The notes under the pieces were generated by a model that saw nothing but the letters and a program-made list of their open reading frames with translations, had not been told where the DNA came from and did not search any database. Of a stretch of DNA of 64,000 nucleotides, positions 43,812-52,622 are shown piece by piece. Each line of letters begins with the position of its first letter. Position 1 is the stretch's first letter. Source of the stretch: Streptomyces sp. DG2A-72 (GTDB lineage Bacteria; Actinomycetota; Actinomycetes; Streptomycetales; Streptomycetaceae); the NCBI RefSeq assembly GCF_030499575.1, contig NZ_JASTLC010000001.1, positions 6,534,001 through 6,598,000 of the forward strand, in the 5' to 3' direction. A program made the position numbers and the translations under genes.

Positions 43812-44738
43812 ATGAGAAAACCTCTGGTCGTCGGGCTCTGCGCCCTGGCCCTCGCCGGGCTGGGCGCGACTCCCGCGGTCGCGGTCGAGCCCACCCCCAC
43901 GGGCTCGGTCACGGGCGGGGAACCGGGCACGCTCTCGGGCGCGGTCCACGACGTGGTCACGTCCGCCACGGCGAGTGTTTCCCGGCTCACGGCGCCGAAG
44001 GCGCAGGCCGTCTCCTTCGCCGGTACCGTCGCGCTGAGCAACTGCTCCGGCTCGGTCGTCCGCTTCCCGGACTCGGAGGACAACGACCCGGCGCTCGTGA
44101 TGTCCAACGGCCACTGCCTGGAGTCCGGCTTCCCCGAGCCCGGCAAGGTCATCGTGGACCAGGCCTCCAGCCGCACCTTCAGCCTGCTGAACTCCGCCGG
44201 TTCCCGCGTCGCGACTCTGCGGGCCAGCAAGATCGCGTACGCGACGATGACCGACACGGACGTCTCGATGTACCAGCTCACCACCACCTACGGTGCGATC
44301 AAGAGCTCGTACGGCATAGACCCGCTGACAATCAGCGAAGCGCGCCCCGCCGCCGGCACCGCCATCACCGTCGTCTCCGGCTACTGGAAGCGGACGTACG
44401 CCTGCGACATCGACGGCTTCGCCCACCGCCTCAAGGAGGGCGGCTGGACCTGGAAGGACTCGGTCCGTTACACCGACTCCTGCGACATCATCGGGGGCAC
44501 CTCGGGCTCGCCGGTGGTCGACAACGCGACCGGTCAGGTCGTCGCCGTCAACAACACCCTCAACGAGGACGGCGCGCGCTGCACCGTGAACAACCCCTGC
44601 GAGGTCGCCGAGAACGGCACGGTGACCGTCCACACGGGCATCGGCTACGGCCAGCAGACCTACCAGATGGCGCCCTGCTTCGGCGTCGACAACAAGCTCG
44701 ACCTGAGCGCGAGCGGCTGCACCCTGCCCAAGCCGTAG
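43812..44738 (+). CDS. Secreted trypsin-like (chymotrypsin-fold) serine protease
   Basis: A 308-residue protein with a Sec signal peptide (VVGLCALALAGLGATPAVAV). The likely catalytic triad is H101 in SNGHCLE, D148 or D150 in MTDTDVSMY, and S231 in GGTSGSPVV, as in V8/glutamyl-endopeptidase-like S1 proteases. Six cysteines after the pro-region may form disulfides. Nearest partners are transcribed differently, so it is a single-gene unit. The substrate cannot be inferred. Confidence 0.9.
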   Translation: MRKPLVVGLCALALAGLGATPAVAVEPTPTGSVTGGEPGTLSGAVHDVVTSATASVSRLTAPKAQAVSFAGTVALSNCSGSVVRFPDSEDNDPALVMSNGHCLESGFPEPGKVIVDQASSRTFSLLNSAGSRVATLRASKIAYATMTDTDVSMYQLTTTYGAIKSSYGIDPLTISEARPAAGTAITVVSGYWKRTYACDIDGFAHRLKEGGWTWKDSVRYTDSCDIIGGTSGSPVVDNATGQVVAVNNTLNEDGARCTVNNPCEVAENGTVTVHTGIGYGQQTYQMAPCFGVDNKLDLSASGCTLPKP

Positions 44739-44767: not shown

Positions 44768-46387
44768 TCAAGCGAGGGCGGGCGGAGTTCCGCGGACCGC
44801 CCGCCCCGCGAGTACGTCCGTCCGCCGCCCGTCCTCGATCACGAACCGCCCGTCGATCAGGACGTGCGGAATGCCCGTCGGCAGCGCCCGCGGTCGCTCG
44901 AAGGTCGAACCCGCCGCCACCGTCGCCGGGTCGAACAGCACCAGGTCCGCCCGGTAGCCCTCGCGGACCAGGCCCCGGTCCGGAAGCCGCAGCCGCGCGG
45001 CCGGGCGCGAGGTGAGATGGGCGACGCATTCTTCCAGGGACAGCACGCCCAACTTCCGTACGTACCGGCCGAGATACTGCGGGAACGTCCCGTACGCGCG
45101 CGGATGCGGCTTCGTCCCCTGGAGGATGCCGTCCGAGCCGCCCGTGTGGACCGGGTGCCGCATGATCGCGCGGACGTTCTCCTCGTGGCCCACGTGCTGG
45201 AGGATCGTCGAACCGAGCCGGTCCTCCAGGAGCAGACGCCGGGCGGTCACCCAGGGAGCCTCTCCGCGCAGGTCCGCCGACTCCTGAACCGTACGGCCCA
45301 CATAGTCGTCGAGGCCGGTCCCGCTCACGCCCGAGATCTCGATCGTGTCCCACTCGATGGGCACGCCATGGCATCCGTCGGCGCCCACGACCTCCATGTG
45401 ATGGCGGATCCGCTCGGCCGTCTCCTCGTCCGCGAGCCGCTTGAGGATCGCCTCCGGACCGCCCTCGCTCGCCCAGCTCGGCAGCATGGCGACCAGCGTG
45501 GTGCAGCCGGGTGTGTAGGGGTACGTGTCGAGGCTGATGTCGGCTCCGGCGGCCAGCGCGTCGTCGAGCAGCGTCAGCAGCTCGGGCGCCCGCCCCTTGT
45601 TCACGCCGAAGTTCATGGTGGCGTGGGCGAGATGGAGCGCGCAGCCCGCCTCCCGGGTCAGGGCGACCATCTCCTCGTACGCCTGAAGCGCGCCCGCGCC
45701 GTACGAGCGGTGGTGCGGGCAGTAGTAGCCGCCGTACTCCGCCACCACCCGGCACAGCTCGGTGAGCTCGGCGTCCTTGGCGTACATGCCGGGGGCGTAG
45801 GTGAGCCCCGACGACATGCCGACCGCGCCCTGCCGCATCCCCTCCGCGACCAACTGCCGCATACGGTCCAGCTCTTCGGGCGTCGCCTCCCGGTCCTCCC
45901 AGCCGACGGCGAGCATACGGACCGTGCCCTGGGGGATGAGATACGCGGCGTTCACCGCGATCCCGCGATCCAGCCGGTCCAGATACTCGCCCACCGACCG
46001 CCAGTCGAAGTCGATGTCGTCACCGTTGCCGTTCCAGCCGGTGATCGCACGGCGCACCTCCGCGAGCGTGCGGTCGTCGACCGGCGCGTACGACAGCCCG
46101 TCCTGGCCGATGACTTCGAGGGTGACCCCCTGTGCGGCCTTGGCGCTGTGGTCGGGGTCGCGGAGCAGGGCGAGGTCGCTGTGGGCGTGCATGTCGATGA
46201 AGCCGGGGGAGAGGACGAGCCCTTCGGCATCCAGCTCTCTGGTCGCCTTGGGCCGTTGACAGCCCGCCGCCGCGGCCTCCTTCACGATCGACACGATCCT
46301 GCCGTCACCGACGACCACATCGGCGCGGTACGCGGGCGCACCCGAGCCGTCGACCACGTCCGCGTCACGGACGACGAGATCTGCCAT
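44768..46387 (-). CDS. N-acyl-D-amino-acid deacylase (amidohydrolase)
   Basis: A 539-residue metal-dependent amidohydrolase. The metal motif H67-A-H69 with D71 lies in GFIDMHAHSDLAL, and further ligands in YCPHHRSYG and HTGGSDGILQG. Length and pattern fit D-aminoacylases, which remove the acyl group of N-acyl-D-amino acids. CTAGGAGGCCCGGTC precedes the ATG. It follows the PLP enzyme gene by 11 bases on the same strand. In the context of a 2-keto-3-deoxygluconate kinase-like gene it may instead deacetylate N-acetyl-D-glucosaminate (inference). Confidence 0.9.
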   Translation of the reverse strand: MADLVVRDADVVDGSGAPAYRADVVVGDGRIVSIVKEAAAAGCQRPKATRELDAEGLVLSPGFIDMHAHSDLALLRDPDHSAKAAQGVTLEVIGQDGLSYAPVDDRTLAEVRRAITGWNGNGDDIDFDWRSVGEYLDRLDRGIAVNAAYLIPQGTVRMLAVGWEDREATPEELDRMRQLVAEGMRQGAVGMSSGLTYAPGMYAKDAELTELCRVVAEYGGYYCPHHRSYGAGALQAYEEMVALTREAGCALHLAHATMNFGVNKGRAPELLTLLDDALAAGADISLDTYPYTPGCTTLVAMLPSWASEGGPEAILKRLADEETAERIRHHMEVVGADGCHGVPIEWDTIEISGVSGTGLDDYVGRTVQESADLRGEAPWVTARRLLLEDRLGSTILQHVGHEENVRAIMRHPVHTGGSDGILQGTKPHPRAYGTFPQYLGRYVRKLGVLSLEECVAHLTSRPAARLRLPDRGLVREGYRADLVLFDPATVAAGSTFERPRALPTGIPHVLIDGRFVIEDGRRTDVLAGRAVRGTPPALA

Positions 46388-46398
46388 GACCGGGCCTC

Positions 46399-47664
46399 CT
46401 AGAAGAACGTACGGATGTAGTCGACGACCGTCCCGTCCGCCTCCGCGACCGGGATCAGCTGCCACTTGTCGAAGGACGTGCACGGGTGCGACAGTCCCAT
46501 GCCCAGCCAGTCGCCCACTTCGAGGTCGGCCTCCGGGGCCGTGCGGAGCCACGCGTGCTGGTCGGAGAGGCTTGTGACCTCGATGCCGGTCGCCGGGTGC
46601 TCGGTGCCGTCCCGCCGTACGACCTGTGCGAAGGGCAGATCCAGGTCGTACGCCGCGTCCCGCTTGCCCGCGTTGGCGAAGGCCTGCTCGGGCGAGGGGC
46701 GGGAGACGACCTGCGCCCACAGGCGGAACGCGGGCTCCAGCGCGCCCTCCTCGGGGACACGGGTGAAGGGCGTCAGCTTGCGGTAGTGGCCGTCGTCGTG
46801 CGAGACGTAGGCGCCCGAACGCAGCAACTTCAGTACGGGGCCGCCGAGTTCCGGGATCTCCGCGAAGACGTCGGCCACCGCGTCGAACCAGGCGCTGCCG
46901 CCGGCGCTGACGACGATCTCGTCCGGGCCCGTGAACCGCCCCGCCTTGTCGAAGTCGACGGCCAGCGCGACGAGCCGCCGCAGCCACGCGCGCACCCGCT
47001 CCGGATCGGCCCGCGGGACCTCGCCCTCGTACCCCGCGACACCGACGAGACGCAGGGTCCGCGTGGCCGCCACGGCGTCCGCGACCGCCGCGCACTCCGC
47101 GTCCGTGCGGGCTCCGGTACGGGTGCCCTCACCGGCGGCGAGCTCGACGACGACATCCAGCGGGCGTTCCGCACCCCGCAGCACGGCGTCCATCTGCTCG
47201 ACGCCGCGCACGGAGTCGACGTAGCAGCTGAACCGGAAGTCCGGGTCCGAGGCCAGCTCGGCGGCGATCCACCGCAGAGCCGCCGGATCCACTACCTCAT
47301 TGGCCAGGAAGATCCGCTGAATGCCGAAGGCCCGCGCCACCCGCACCTGGTGCGGCACGGCGAGGGTGATGCCCCAGGCGCCGTGCTCGATCTGGCGGTG
47401 GAAGAGCTGCGGGGCCATGGAGGTCTTGCCGTGCGGGGCGAAGGCGAGACCGTGGCGGATCGTGTACGACTCCATGAGCGCGAGATTGTGTTCCAGCCGC
47501 TCGGCGGAGAGGGCGAGCACCGGCGTGGCGAAACCGCCGGTGAAGAGATTGCGGCGCTGGGCCGTCAGCTCGGCGACGGTCAGGCCGTCGGCGTCCGGCG
47601 GGAGGCCCTTGAAGCGGTGGTCGACACGTTCCTCGGCCAGGCGGGCGAGCGCTTCAACGGCCAT
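46399..47664 (-). CDS. D-serine dehydratase-like / D-threonine aldolase-like PLP enzyme (amino acid deaminase)
   Basis: A 421-residue fold-type III PLP enzyme. The PLP lysine is K80 in FAPHGKTSMAPQ. The C-terminal metal site shows the His-x-Cys pair in LSHPCTSFDKW, as in the zinc-dependent D-serine dehydratase family. Members remove ammonia from hydroxy-D-amino acids, including D-glucosaminate in some bacteria. It is the first gene of the minus-strand pair and faces the kinase operon across a 136-base promoter region with palindromes. Confidence 0.88.
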   Translation of the reverse strand: MAVEALARLAEERVDHRFKGLPPDADGLTVAELTAQRRNLFTGGFATPVLALSAERLEHNLALMESYTIRHGLAFAPHGKTSMAPQLFHRQIEHGAWGITLAVPHQVRVARAFGIQRIFLANEVVDPAALRWIAAELASDPDFRFSCYVDSVRGVEQMDAVLRGAERPLDVVVELAAGEGTRTGARTDAECAAVADAVAATRTLRLVGVAGYEGEVPRADPERVRAWLRRLVALAVDFDKAGRFTGPDEIVVSAGGSAWFDAVADVFAEIPELGGPVLKLLRSGAYVSHDDGHYRKLTPFTRVPEEGALEPAFRLWAQVVSRPSPEQAFANAGKRDAAYDLDLPFAQVVRRDGTEHPATGIEVTSLSDQHAWLRTAPEADLEVGDWLGMGLSHPCTSFDKWQLIPVAEADGTVVDYIRTFF

Positions 47665-47686
47665 CGGACCTCCCGGATCAGGGGCG

Positions 47687-47711
47687 TTGCATTTACTGCA
47701 ATGTTCATTGC
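47687..47711. promoter_or_regulatory. Overlapping palindromes, candidate IclR operator
   Basis: TTGCA-N5-TGCAA (47687-47701) overlaps GCAATG-N2-CATTGC (47698-47711), giving three phased half-sites. They lie in the shared promoter between the deacylase/PLP-enzyme operon and the kinase-IclR-RidA operon. One IclR dimer or a pair of dimers could control both directions. The neighbouring IclR gene is the obvious candidate binder. Confidence 0.6.
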
Positions 47712-47800
47712 GTATGTCGCTGACCGCTGTCTAACATCTCGGCCAACGCGGGGTCAACGGAGCAGCCGACAACCGCACCACCCGAGGAGCTACGACCATC

Positions 47801-48943
47801 GTGACCGTCACCGGACCCTGCAATGCCCCCGACGTCGTGGACGTCGTCGCGCTCGGCGAGTCCATGGTCACGTTCCTGCCCACCCGCCCGGGCCGCCTCG
47901 CCGACGTCCCGTCCTTCGACCGCGGAATCGGCGGCGCGGAATCCAACGTGGCGTGCGTGCTGGCCGCCGCCGGGCATTCGGCCCGGTGGGTGAGCCGGGT
48001 CGGCACGGACGGCTTCGGCGACCACCTGACCGAGGCGATCGGGGGGTACGGCGTCGACGTGTCGGCGGTGCGGAGGGATTCGGAGCGCCCGACGGGGGTG
48101 TACTTCCGCACGGCGGGGGACCGGGCGACCGATGCGCACGAGGTGGCGTACTACCGGGCGGGGTCGGCTGCGTCGGCCATGGCGGTGGAGAACGTGGACA
48201 TGGGGGCGGTGCGGGCGGGGAGGGTGCTGCACCTGTCCGGGATCACGGCGGCGCTGTCCGAGGGGTGCTTGCAGTTGGTGCGGGAACTGACGTCCCTGTG
48301 TCGAGGGCGGCAGCTTGTCTCGTTCGACGTGAACTATCGGCCGGGGCTGTGGAGGGATGCCGACAGTGCGGGCGTGCTGCTGGAGTTGGCGCGTGACGCG
48401 GACATCGTGTTCGTAGGAGAAGACGAGGCGGAGGAGGCCTGGGGGGTCACAGGCGGGCCGGCGGCAATCAGGGAGCTACTGCCGGAGCCGGGGACAGTGG
48501 TGGTGAAGCAGGGGGCGCGCGGGGCGACGGCGTCCGTCAGGCTGCGGGCAGTCGTGCCGCCTGGGGCGGCACGGGTGGGCGCAGGCGGCACCCCGTCAGC
48601 GCCGGGCCGCGCGACCCACCCCCGGCCCACCGCAACGCCGGTCACCTTCGTCCCCGCCCTCAATGTCACCCCCGTAGCCGCGGTCGGCGCAGGCGACGCC
48701 TTCGCCGCCGGCTTCCTCTCCGGCGCCCTCCGCGAACTCCCCGTCCGCGACCGCCTCCGCCACGGCCACCTCATGGCCGCCGCCACCCTCACCGCCCCCG
48801 GCGACCTCGCACCCCCACCCCACCGCGCCCACGCCGACCGCCTCGCCGCCCTCGACGACAAGACGTGGGGGACACTTCGACTCGGCCCAGGCTGGACGAG
48901 CCAGACCGAACACCGGGCCGAGGAGGAGGTACGCACCCCATGA
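47801..48943 (+). CDS. PfkB-family sugar kinase, 2-keto-3-deoxygluconate kinase-like
   Basis: A 380-residue kinase with the PfkB substrate motif GGAESNVACVLAAAG near residue 45 and the catalytic motif VGAGDAFAAGFLSG with its base aspartate. The opening VVDVVALGESMVTFLPTRPG resembles KDG kinases. It would phosphorylate a keto-deoxy sugar acid on the way to pyruvate and glyceraldehyde 3-phosphate. It starts with GTG after GAGGAGC, and its stop overlaps the IclR start (ATGA). A proline/alanine-rich insertion at about 245-275 is unusual. Confidence 0.87.
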   Translation: MTVTGPCNAPDVVDVVALGESMVTFLPTRPGRLADVPSFDRGIGGAESNVACVLAAAGHSARWVSRVGTDGFGDHLTEAIGGYGVDVSAVRRDSERPTGVYFRTAGDRATDAHEVAYYRAGSAASAMAVENVDMGAVRAGRVLHLSGITAALSEGCLQLVRELTSLCRGRQLVSFDVNYRPGLWRDADSAGVLLELARDADIVFVGEDEAEEAWGVTGGPAAIRELLPEPGTVVVKQGARGATASVRLRAVVPPGAARVGAGGTPSAPGRATHPRPTATPVTFVPALNVTPVAAVGAGDAFAAGFLSGALRELPVRDRLRHGHLMAAATLTAPGDLAPPPHRAHADRLAALDDKTWGTLRLGPGWTSQTEHRAEEEVRTP

Positions 48944-49701
48944 GCCAGACCGTCGACCGCGCACTGAGCATCCTGCCGCTGCTCGCCGAGGGCCCCGCCG
49001 ACCTCGGTCAGGTCGCCGACCGCCTGGGCGTCCACAAGTCCACGGCGCTGCGCCTCCTCCGCACGCTCCACGAGCACGGCATGGTCTACCGCCAGTCCGA
49101 CCAGCGCTACCGCCTCGGCGCCCGCCTCATCGCCCTCGCCCAGGAGGCGATGGAGAACCTCGACATCCGCGAGATCGCCCACCCCCACCTCGTACGCCTC
49201 AACGAGCAGTGCGGACACACCGTCCACCTCGCCGTGTACGAGGAGGACGAGGTCCTCTACATCGACAAGGTGGAGAGCCGCTACCCGGTGCGGATGTACT
49301 CGCGGATCGGGAAACCGGTGGCCATCACCGTCGCCGCCGTCGCCAAGCTGCTGCTCGCCGACCTCCCCGAGCACGAGCGCCGTGCCCTCGCGGAGAAGCT
49401 CGACTACCCCATGTACACGGCCCGTTCGACGCCCCATCCGGACGCCTTCCTCAGGGAACTGGCCAAAGTGCGCGAACAGGGCTGGGCCACCGATCTCGGC
49501 GGCCACGAGGAGTCCGTCAACTGCGTCGCCGCGCCCATCCGCGGCGCCGACGGCCGGGTCGCCGCCGCGATGTCGGTGTCCGCGCCCAACGTCGTCGTCA
49601 CCGCCGACGAACTCCTCACCCTGCTCCCGCTGGTCCGCCGCACCGCGGACGCGATCAGCGGCGAGTACTCCGGCAGGACCTCGACGAAGGATGACGTATG
49701 A
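48940..49701 (+). CDS. IclR-family transcriptional regulator
   Basis: A 253-residue regulator. The winged helix spans about residues 5-65 (LGQVADRLGVHKSTALRLLR), and the C-terminal effector-binding domain has VHLAVYEEDEVLYIDKVES and CVAAPIRGADGRVAAAMSVS. IclR members control sugar-acid and aromatic catabolism, often with keto-deoxy sugar effectors (KdgR type). GAGGAGGTACGC precedes the ATG at 48940. It is sandwiched by four-base overlaps with the kinase and RidA genes, so all three are co-translated. Confidence 0.93.
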   Translation: MSQTVDRALSILPLLAEGPADLGQVADRLGVHKSTALRLLRTLHEHGMVYRQSDQRYRLGARLIALAQEAMENLDIREIAHPHLVRLNEQCGHTVHLAVYEEDEVLYIDKVESRYPVRMYSRIGKPVAITVAAVAKLLLADLPEHERRALAEKLDYPMYTARSTPHPDAFLRELAKVREQGWATDLGGHEESVNCVAAPIRGADGRVAAAMSVSAPNVVVTADELLTLLPLVRRTADAISGEYSGRTSTKDDV

Positions 49702-50108
49702 CCGACAAGATCGCCCTCACCCCCAAGACCCACACCACGCCGCCCGCGAAGTTCTCGCACGGAGTGAAGAAGGGCAACATCCTCCAGGTTGCCGGCCAGG
49801 TCGGCTTCCTGCCCGCGGTCGAGGGACAGCCCCCGACGCCGGCCGGCCCGACCCTGCGGGAGCAGACCCTCCAGACCCTCGCCAACGTCAAGGCGATCCT
49901 GGAGGAGGGCGGGGCCTCCTGGGACGACGTGATGATGATCCGCGTCTATCTGACGGACGTCGCCCACTTCGCCGAGATGAACGAGATCTACGACCGGTAT
50001 TTCGAGGAGCAGAGCCTTACCCAGGCAGCGGCTGCTCGGACCACGGTGTATGTGGGGCTGCCCAGGGGGCTGCTGGTTGAGATTGACGCCTTGGCTGTAC
50101 TCGGCTGA
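49698..50108 (+). CDS. RidA-family enamine/imine deaminase
   Basis: A 136-residue protein with the family blocks HGVKKGNILQVAGQVGFLPA, QTLQTLANVKAILEEGGASW, and RTTVYVGLPRGLLVEIDALA including the conserved arginine and glutamate. RidA hydrolyses reactive enamine/imine intermediates released by PLP dehydratases. Co-transcription with a kinase and regulator, across from a PLP deaminase, fits a helper role for that enzyme. It overlaps the IclR gene by four bases. Confidence 0.93.
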   Translation: MTDKIALTPKTHTTPPAKFSHGVKKGNILQVAGQVGFLPAVEGQPPTPAGPTLREQTLQTLANVKAILEEGGASWDDVMMIRVYLTDVAHFAEMNEIYDRYFEEQSLTQAAAARTTVYVGLPRGLLVEIDALAVLG

Positions 50109-50182: not shown

Positions 50183-50284
50183 ATGAGCTCTTCGCCGTCT
50201 CCGGGGCGCGCCTGGACCGTGCTGGAGACGCTGCTGTCGGTCGTGGGCTTCGTCGTGGCGGCCGTACTCAGTCTGTTCATGTAG
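50183..50284 (+). CDS. Possible 33-residue membrane peptide
   Basis: The frame reads MSSSPSPGRAWTVLETLLSV followed by VGFVVAAVLSLFM and TAG. A short basic start and one hydrophobic helix suggest a tiny membrane peptide. Codon use is GC-rich at third positions as in real genes, but no ribosome-binding site is visible. The rest of the gap 50109-50350 shows nothing else. Confidence 0.4.
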   Translation: MSSSPSPGRAWTVLETLLSVVGFVVAAVLSLFM

Positions 50285-50350: not shown

Positions 50351-50866
50351 GTGGAGCAGCGCATAGGTTCGAGCAGCCAGCCCCTGGACGGCGCCGGGGT
50401 CGACCCGGCCTTCATCCCCGGGATCACCCCACCCGTGTCCGAAGAGCCGGAGGACGTGAAGCCTCAGGACACGGAGGCGGACGAGCCGGTCGAGGAGGAG
50501 ACTCCCGAGGAGCCCGCCGCCTCCGAAGAGGAGGAGCGGGAGCCCGAAGAGGAGGCGGAGGAGGCCCCCGACGGGCCCGTCTTCGCGGCCTCCGACCGCC
50601 GCGCCAAGATAGTCGCCGACCACCGTGGCGTACGACTGTCCCTGGACGACCAGGAATGCGAGTTCCGCTGGGACGAGATCGGTGCGGTCGAGACGGAGTC
50701 CCCCCGCTTCGGCAAGCGTTTCACCATCACGGTGCACACCCCTGACCGCCGCTGGTACCCGATCGAGATCGAGGCGACGGCCAGGAGCAGCTTCAGTGAG
50801 TGGGAGTCACAGCTGGACGCGGTGCTGGACGCCTACTTCGAGGAGTCCGAAGAGGAGTCCGACTAA
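50351..50866 (+). CDS. Acidic cytoplasmic protein with PH-like domain
   Basis: A 171-residue protein. Residues 1-75 are strongly acidic and probably unstructured ([18 protein letters not shown]). The C-terminal half ([60 protein letters not shown]) looks like a small beta-barrel of the PH type. The start is GTG at 50351. Its stop overlaps the convergent carboxypeptidase stop by four bases. The function is unknown. Confidence 0.78.
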
Positions 50867-52218
50867 CTGCAGTACTGGGCTTCCTTCCCGATCGACCGGT
50901 ACATACAGTCCGCGTTCTCCAGCAACTGCAGTACCGCATCCCGGTTCCGGGACGTCTCCCGCTCGATCACCTCGTCGGGCGGGTAGAAGCCACCCCCGGA
51001 GCTCGACCGCGGATACATCTCGAAGGTGTACCCGAAGATCTTCTGGTTCCCCCACAGCCAGTCGTCGATCGACCCGTCGGTGATGTACAGGTCACTGGAC
51101 TGCTCGGGCGTATAGCCGTTGCTGGCGGCCATCTTCCCGCCCACCGTGGCGAAGGCGTTGCGGTCGTCGGCCGTCATGCCGGTCGTCGTGTCGGCGGTGG
51201 TGTACCCGAAGGGCCACAGCACCAGCTCGCTGTACGTGTGGAAGTCGATCCCCGCCTTGATCTGCTGCACACCGCCGACGACCCGGCTGCGCACGAAGTT
51301 CGCGACCACCTTCACCTCGGTCGCGGATTCGGCGGCACTGCCCCGGTACGTGTCCGAGGACGTCGACCCCGACGACCCGCCGCAGCAGCCCCACCGGTAG
51401 TTCCAGTTCCGGTTGAGGTCGGTGCCGACGTACGACGAACCGGAGTTGGGCTGCCGGTTCTTCCGCCAGGAGCGGTAGGAGCCGCTCGCGATGTCGTACT
51501 CGCCACCGTCGGGGTTGAGGTCGGGGACGATCCAGATCTCGCGGTTGTTCACCATGCTGGTGACACGGGAGTCGGTGCCGTAGTCGGACGTCAACTCCCG
51601 CAGCAGATACAGCGCCATCTCGACGGTGAGGTGCTCACGCGCGTGCTGGTGGTGCGTGAACAGCACCTCCGGCTCGGACTCGTCGGTGCCGACGTTGTCG
51701 CTGATCTTGATGGCGACGATGTTCCGGCCCTGGTACGACGTGCCGATGGTCCGCTGGCTGGCGATGCTCGGGTTGGCCGAGACGAGGGAGTTGATCTCGC
51801 TCGTCATCTCGGCGTAGTTGTGGTACCTGGAGTCGGCCGACGGGAAGTCGAGCAGCCGTACGTCGTCCTCGCCCGCCGAGCGGTCCGGGACCGCGCCCAA
51901 CGGCGTCACCTCGTAGCCGAGTTGACGCAGCTTCTTGATCTGGCCGGCGCGGCCCGAGACGACCAGGCCGTGGTCGTCGGCCTCGTCGACCGTCACGCCG
52001 GCCTGCTGGATCGCCGTACGGTCCTTGACCGTCGAGTGCATATGGACCTCGTACTGGCGGACGTCGTCCGCCGAGGCCGTGGGGCGGGCGCCGCCGTCCG
52101 CGGTGGCGGTCGGGGCCGTCGCGGCGAGGGGTGCCGCGAGCGCGAAGGCGGCGAGGGCGGCCAGCGCGGCGGTTCGTCTGCCGCCTCGCGCGCCTGAGCC
52201 GCGTATGCGAAGTCGCAT
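50863..52218 (-). CDS. Secreted M14 zinc carboxypeptidase
   Basis: A 451-residue protein with a twin-basic start and signal peptide ([20 protein letters not shown]), a pro-region of about 90 residues and the metallocarboxypeptidase domain. Zinc ligands are in HHQHAREH (HxxE) and the later [12 protein letters not shown]; the catalytic glutamate is in GYTFEMYP. Substrate-binding [16 protein letters not shown] is conserved. Cysteine pairs (RWGCCGG, ADCMYR, QYCS) suggest disulfides. CAAGGAGATTTC precedes the ATG. It would trim C-terminal residues from extracellular peptides. Confidence 0.93.
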
Positions 52219-52622
52219 GAAATCTCCTTGTTTCTCCAGTAGTTCCGGGGTCTCCGGAGTGGGGAGTGGAGCTGGGGGGTGTCTCTCTGCGACGTGCCTG
52301 GTGCGGGTGTGGCGCTCATGGTGGAGGTATGGCATGGCCCGGTCAAGAGTTGGCCAGGAGTCAGTGGCCGAAAATCGACCGCGCAGTGTACGCGCGCCCG
52401 TCCCGGCAGACCCGGACCCTGACGAAGTGCACCCGACGGTGTGACCGCGGCGTGCAAATATGCAATCCGCCGGGGGAGAGTGGGGAGTGCGCGTAAGGGG
52501 AGTCACACCCTCCGGCTCGGCGCAGGCCGCATGGAACCCACCCACGGATCCAAGCACGCCACCCCCCCCGGATCACACCCCCGGCTTTCCTCGGACCCCC
52601 ACACCCCAAGGACTGGCTGATC
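52219..52622. other. 404-base divergent intergenic region
   Basis: This region separates the carboxypeptidase gene from the LuxR-type regulator gene. It contains TGCAAATATGCA at 52453-52464, a small AT-rich palindrome, and a C-rich stretch just before the regulator gene. No reading frame with coding character was found. Confidence 0.5.

Follow-up and report, generated by a model that had tools for sequence, protein, structure and literature searches.

Background

The closest described route for the use of N-acetyl-D-glucosaminate (GlcNAc1A), the C1-oxidised chitin end, is the ong pathway of Pseudoalteromonas. Using RNA sequencing, knock-outs and enzyme assays, Jiang et al. (2022; PMC9537276, of which the available part is used here and below) found that P. 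prydzensis converts GlcNAc1A to 2-keto-3-deoxygluconate 6-phosphate (KDG-6-P, or KDPG) via OngB, OngC and KdgK. According to the same part of that report, the RidA-family protein OngD is essential in P. prydzensis in a role that is unknown, OngC also deaminates D-Ser and D-Thr, and a survey that demanded four or more genes above 30% identity per locus recovered Gammaproteobacteria only, plus one Achromobacter (PMC9537276). The structure of OngB and its residues are covered in the available part of Wang et al. (2025; PMC12017989). Here, we analyse a 64,000-nucleotide stretch of Streptomyces sp. DG2A-72 (RefSeq assembly GCF_030499575.1, contig NZ_JASTLC010000001.1, positions 6,534,001 to 6,598,000; hereafter the window, within which positions are counted), and in particular a cluster of five genes at 44768-50108. 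From sequence comparisons, we assign a probability of roughly 0.68 to the reading that this cluster serves the cytoplasmic breakdown of GlcNAc1A.

An earlier note on this DNA had pointed to a similar route in marine bacteria, and at the level of enzyme types the likeness is close: the cluster of P. prydzensis (PMC9537276) and that of the window share a D-aminoacylase-like deacetylase, a fold-type III pyridoxal-phosphate (PLP) deaminase, a PfkB-type 2-keto-3-deoxygluconate (KDG) kinase and a RidA protein, with KDG-6-P as the proposed end product of both. Further ong features present here are the placement of the PfkB kinase and RidA within the cluster and the occurrence of an AA10 lytic polysaccharide monooxygenase (LPMO) in the genome. 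The deacylase, lyase, kinase and RidA of the window are 28, 31 (E 3e-62 against OngC), 23 and 28% identical to the Ong proteins of P. shioyasakiensis, and the survey described above would therefore probably pass them over. The two systems differ in their regulator, which is RpiR in ong and IclR here, and in their transporter, which is of the SSS family in ong and of the GntP family here, where only a remnant of it is left in the window. The ong cluster also carries a GH20 enzyme (OngA) and a TonB receptor, whereas the window cluster has neither, and queries with OngA and the SSS transporter found no match in the window. Since the deacylase and lyase fall in other clades than their ong counterparts, and the regulator and the transporter differ as well, we rule out that the cluster is an orthologous member of the ong family.

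The enzymes and regulator encoded by the cluster

Open reading frames and Pfam matches place all five genes, arranged as two divergent operons, where the earlier note had put them. The minus-strand operon begins with the PLP enzyme and ends with the proposed GlcNAc1A deacetylase (44768-46387; 539 residues; PF07969, 208 bits), an amidohydrolase scoring 242 bits against the solved D-aminoacylase and 191 bits against PpOngB. By residue alignment, it retains His68, His70, Tyr194, His222, His252, Tyr285, Asp368 and Arg379 (OngB numbering), whereas Cys97, which binds zinc in OngB, is replaced by Asp, Glu226 by Tyr, Lys254 by Thr and Ser292 by Thr. Of the two OngB specificity residues, Ser292 and Gln298, only the former was compared, column 298 not being reliably aligned, and the insertion domain gave no dependable alignment. 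Both His and the catalytic Asp of the subtype V (D-aminoacylase) amidohydrolase site are present, with Asp in place of Cys, and the enzyme would probably act as a metal-dependent amidohydrolase with Asp at the position of the Cys ligand. The substitution is not particular to this strain: Asp97 and Tyr226 occur together in 116 of the 125 deacylases compared, with Thr, His, Val or no aligned residue at position 254, and the remaining nine are five OngB-type rows, AfDam, and the deacylases of loci L040, L062 and L065, which group with D-aminoacylases on long branches. OngB (PDB 9kb1; PMC12017989), AfDam (1m7j) and BbDam (3gip) are of the same superfamily as the window enzyme and of a separate clade, a branch with support of 100/99 splitting 46 actinobacterial rows of the Asp97 type from all three. 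The residues of the window enzyme and its position in the tree set it outside the OngB subfamily. Sco4986 of Streptomyces coelicolor, a possible orthologue, has reportedly been assayed as a D-amino-acid deacylase.

As a side observation from these alignments, the OngB residue set is complete in PDB entry 9g5m, deposited only as 'Amidohydrolase family protein'. Because of this full set, and of the zero branch length to a Klebsiella plasmid deacylase (L075:7992-9431), 9g5m may be an unlabelled OngB.

Separated from the deacylase gene by 11 bases and on the same strand, the proposed D-glucosaminate ammonia-lyase, or dehydratase, is a fold-type III PLP enzyme of 421 residues (46399-47664; PF14031, 71 bits; PF01168, 37 bits), whose best solved relative is 3gwq, annotated as 'D-serine deaminase' (294 bits). 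It carries the motif SHPCxxFDKW, found in 112 of 132 PLP proteins, which we take to be the metal-site motif of D-serine dehydratase-like fold-type III enzymes. In the tree of these proteins, the four OngC rows fall outside the actinobacterial group (branch 89/100), with 3gwq in between. Within the class, a match to the enzyme occurs in 83 of 197 genomes, including all 16 congeneric genomes listed, our own among them.

On the plus strand, the kinase gene (47801-48943; PF00294, 158 bits) starts with GTG, preceded by GAGGAG, and overlaps the IclR gene (48940-49701; PF09339 and PF01614) by four bases (48940-48943), which in turn overlaps the RidA gene (49698-50108; PF01042, 90 bits), coding for a proposed enamine/imine deaminase, by another four (49698-49701). 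The best NCBIfam model for the kinase is that of KDG/2-keto-3-deoxygalactonate (KDGal) kinases, NF040938 (161 bits, below the cut-off of 400), and its best solved relative is the KDG kinase of T. thermophilus, 1v19 (138 bits), with which it shares the motifs YYR, NYR and GAGD in the alignment. Tyr103, Arg105, Arg167 and Asp251 of 1v19, residues that we presume to take part in KDG binding, are identical in the window kinase, which differs from 1v19 by an extra stretch before GAGD (48500-48680). The length of the kinase match varies among congeneric loci. For the regulator, the best NCBIfam model is KdgR (157 bits, below the cut-off of 275).

Conservation of the cluster and its neighbouring genes

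When named genomes were scanned with an aligned set of 11 deacylases, at least 402 relatives were returned; we analysed the best 80 loci, picked on likeness of the deacylase and of no other gene. The PLP enzyme gene (plp) is present in all 80, ridA in 76, iclR in 67, pfkB in 63 and GntP in 50, and 20 loci have a KDPG aldolase gene and 10 a GH20 gene. All five genes of the window cluster occur together in 62 loci, and in 77 plp lies directly beside the deacylase gene on the same strand. Within the genus, the divergent five-gene layout recurs in 14 of 15 loci, the other (L035) being without a kinase match. Given this constancy of layout, and the presence of all five genes in 62 of 80 loci, the arrangement is not due to chance. 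It reaches well beyond Streptomyces, the 46 loci from elsewhere (pfkB 31, GntP 28, aldolase 19, GH20 10) including Kitasatospora, Kribbella, Nocardia, Tsukamurella, Amycolatopsis, Saccharopolyspora, Arthrobacter and Microbacterium, and related genes, mostly reordered, are found in other families (L047, L063, L067, L068, L069, L074, on an Arthrobacter plasmid, and L087). As a control, we took 13 loci that have the PLP enzyme and lack both this deacylase and any of the PRK09237 type. None of them gave a match to the kinase, the KDPG aldolase or GntP; GH20 was present in four of the 13, all from one family. In other actinobacteria, a protein of about 400 residues also recurs near RidA, the lyase or the deacylase (L067:3514-4716, L040:12159-13391, L044, L048, L084 and L085), and gave no family match in Pfam (L067 and L040) or NCBIfam (L067).

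The neighbouring genes bear on the substrate. The earlier note had proposed co-occurrence with KDPG aldolase as a check, and the copies in 20 of the 80 neighbourhoods, together with the single copy in our genome, which lies outside the cluster, agree with it; an aldolase gene also lies near the cluster in L047, L063, L067, L068, L074, L087 and L088. PF01081 was found in both aldolases scanned with Pfam, and TIGR01182 was the best or second-best model in seven of seven, above its cut-off in three. Such a neighbour indicates that the product is a 2-keto-3-deoxy-6-phosphosugar acid or close kin. This aldolase family also takes in 2-keto-4-hydroxyglutarate (KHG) aldolases, and one could therefore imagine an unrelated N-acyl substrate, to which the Asp-for-Cys site would be adapted, as the prevalence of the Asp97/Tyr226 signature would allow, and whose keto acid would still be processed by a kinase for 2-keto-3-deoxy acids and an aldolase of the Eda type. 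We consider this very improbable, as the kinase, aldolase, GntP, GH20 and glucosaminate-lyase-type neighbours jointly fit glucosaminate without extra assumptions.

Among the ten named loci with GH20, five have the gene no more than about 1.5 kb from the deacylase or aldolase, and in the other five it lies about 6 kb off. In L082, a GH20 catalytic domain adjoins both deacylase and lyase; L017 has the same arrangement with a truncated GH20 gene, and in L039, L041, L046 and L064 the domain adjoins the lyase only. In the cluster L077, the role of the lyase is taken by a member of the DgaE family (D-glucosaminate-6-phosphate ammonia-lyases), which is unrelated to the fold-type III lyase of the window; the genome of L077 has a fold-type III enzyme elsewhere, adjoining a GH20 gene (L064). 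In the clusters L061 and L088, the deacetylase is of the PRK09237 type (361.7 bits, below the cut-off of 371) and an SSS symporter is present, that of L061 being 44-54% identical to stretches in three marine ong loci.

These neighbours also speak to whether the cluster might degrade N-acyl-D-amino acids, for instance N-acetyl-D-serine or -threonine, the kinase being functionally unrelated. The deacylase and the PLP enzyme are, after all, homologous to D-aminoacylase and D-serine deaminase, and the activity of OngC on D-Ser and D-Thr (PMC9537276, available part) fits such a role. Yet the kinase is present in 63 and KDPG aldolase in 20 of the 80 neighbourhoods, GH20 and a DgaE-family lyase occur among the neighbours, and Lys254, the carboxylate binder in OngB and D-aminoacylases, is replaced, which together make this explanation improbable. 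A plain D-amino-acid pathway, which the earlier note had already found inadequate, is rejected in view of the kinase and of the linkage to KDPG aldolase and GH20.

A predicted operator and a permease remnant

The promoter region shared by the two operons contains the palindrome GTTGCATTTACTGCAATGTTCATTGCG (47686-47712), a predicted IclR operator on account of its conservation across loci. This pattern has a single match in the window and none in 100 shuffles, and its TTGC-N7-GCAA core is conserved in 14 aligned congeneric promoters as well as in L063 and L074. More generally, of 78 named loci, 71 have TTGC-N6-8-GCAA upstream of plp, compared with an expectation of 0.008 per equal length elsewhere in those loci. 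The site tracks the regulator, being present in 67 of 67 loci with IclR versus 4 of 11 without (p 1.2e-7, a value that is inexact because the loci are related), and 2 of the 13 control loci have one such site anywhere. Most likely, then, both operons are controlled by IclR from this one predicted operator. Scans for sigma-70-like promoters and terminators gave no match, nor did a search with the DasR consensus find a site.

Downstream of RidA, a plus-strand stretch at 50207-50284 corresponds to the last 25 codons and stop codon of a GntP permease gene. In a search that included the whole window, it was 76% identical to residues 471-495 of the 495-residue GntP of L031 (E 7.8e-5), whose gene lies downstream of RidA, and 10 of the 15 congeneric loci have a GntP gene in that position. 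The remnant and the position of GntP in the relatives suggest that the ancestral cluster probably had six genes and that the cognate permease was lost in this strain. No such remnants were seen in 35 other loci without GntP. Elsewhere, our genome holds two more distant GntP genes, 39% and 37% identical, the latter having a single in-frame stop within its matched part. All three GntP copies that were scanned scored above the cut-off of the gluconate:H+ symporter model. As judged by eye, the cluster is flanked by genes resembling a secreted serine protease (43812-44738) and an M14-type carboxypeptidase (50863-52557).

Lytic polysaccharide monooxygenases and the source of the substrate

Our genome has GH20 genes and five full-length AA10 LPMO matches (PF03067) plus two fragments; the latter, adjacent on opposite strands at C1:1977042-1977306 (locus L174), resemble a broken LPMO gene. 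In a sample of the class outside the genus, with the 16 congeneric genomes listed taken as all congeneric ones and a deacylase cut-off of at least 48% identity, LPMO is present in 7 of 12 genomes with the deacylase versus 27 of 169 without (p 0.0018), five of the 12 being from one family and all five having LPMO. In one genus, probably Microbacterium as judged by the likeness of its loci, the numbers are 5 of 50 versus 3 of 148 (p 0.026), and outside Streptomyces LPMO is present in 24 of the 42 named genomes that carry the cluster. No LPMO gene was matched in the 80 named neighbourhoods with a single LPMO query. The association of cluster and LPMO is positive and moderate; it is far from universal, and relatedness accounts for part of it. 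What the earlier note drew as a link to the chitin LPMOs that the organism itself secretes thus survives as a moderate association; given the many cluster genomes without LPMO, cells may often scavenge their substrate where the LPMOs of other organisms have acted, or the substrate may be of other origin.

These genomes are also what lends some weight to the same chemistry with a different starting point: N-acetyl-D-galactosaminate, a further epimer or acyl variant, or D-glucosaminate from oxidised glucosamine or cell-wall sugars, with no part for LPMO-cut chitin. The model closest to the kinase is a bifunctional one, covering KDG and KDGal, the specificity residues of the deacylase are unlike those of OngB, and GH20 enzymes can act on GalNAc too. 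The LPMO association, positive though confounded in both samples, and the DgaE-family lyase in one cluster, which points to the gluco form, lead us to regard this alternative as unlikely, if worth keeping in mind.

Discussion

In the breakdown of GlcNAc1A that we favour, the substrate would enter through a GntP-type permease, the RidA-adjacent copy of which is deleted in this strain, leaving the two more distant GntP genes. By homology, the deacylase would free acetate from GlcNAc1A to give D-glucosaminate, from which the PLP enzyme would remove ammonia via an enamine, which RidA would help to clear, to give KDG. The PfkB kinase, in which the relevant motifs are retained, would phosphorylate KDG to KDPG, to be cleaved to pyruvate and glyceraldehyde-3-phosphate by a KDPG aldolase that is encoded elsewhere in this genome and within the cluster in other genera, with IclR presumably governing both operons and, as the earlier note suggested, perhaps sensing a keto-deoxy acid. 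This chemistry, from GlcNAc1A through D-glucosaminate and KDG to KDPG, is that of the earlier note; it is backed by the KDPG aldolase, GntP, GH20 and DgaE-family lyase neighbours, with the exact substrate inferred.

Several observations weigh against this assignment. The deacylase has the four substitutions relative to OngB and is split from OngB and the D-aminoacylases by a well-supported branch, and the actinobacterial PLP group includes many enzymes outside such clusters. The GntP family also holds the D-serine transporter DsdX. A kinase match is absent from the stretch examined in 17 of the 80 named loci, two of them cut by contig ends, and in the 34 Streptomyces loci (pfkB 32, GntP 22) aldolase and GH20 are rare (1 and 0). 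Finally, 18 of the 42 cluster genomes outside Streptomyces and 45 of the 50 deacylase genomes of the probable Microbacterium are without LPMO.

Taking the comparisons across genera together, the balance tips modestly towards a widespread actinobacterial pathway for oxidised chitin ends, assembled apart from the proteobacterial ong system, with an independently recruited Asp-site deacetylase, an IclR operator common to Streptomyces through Arthrobacter, and exchangeable modules (a PRK09237-type deacetylase, a DgaE-type lyase, GntP or SSS uptake). Our literature search, which left subscription papers mostly outside, found no paper on such a route in Streptomyces or other actinobacteria.

Streptomyces secrete chitin-active LPMOs, and the literature searched holds no account of the fate of the oxidised ends in these organisms, a question to which the cluster offers a defined answer: five genes, one operator and one named substrate. 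If the reading is true, the oxidative chitin pathway, so far one of mainly marine Gammaproteobacteria, would extend to important actinobacteria of the soil, and genes now named after D-amino-acid enzymes would gain a function. Confirmation of the activity would mean that GlcNAc1A deacetylation has two or more origins, the second with an altered metal site.

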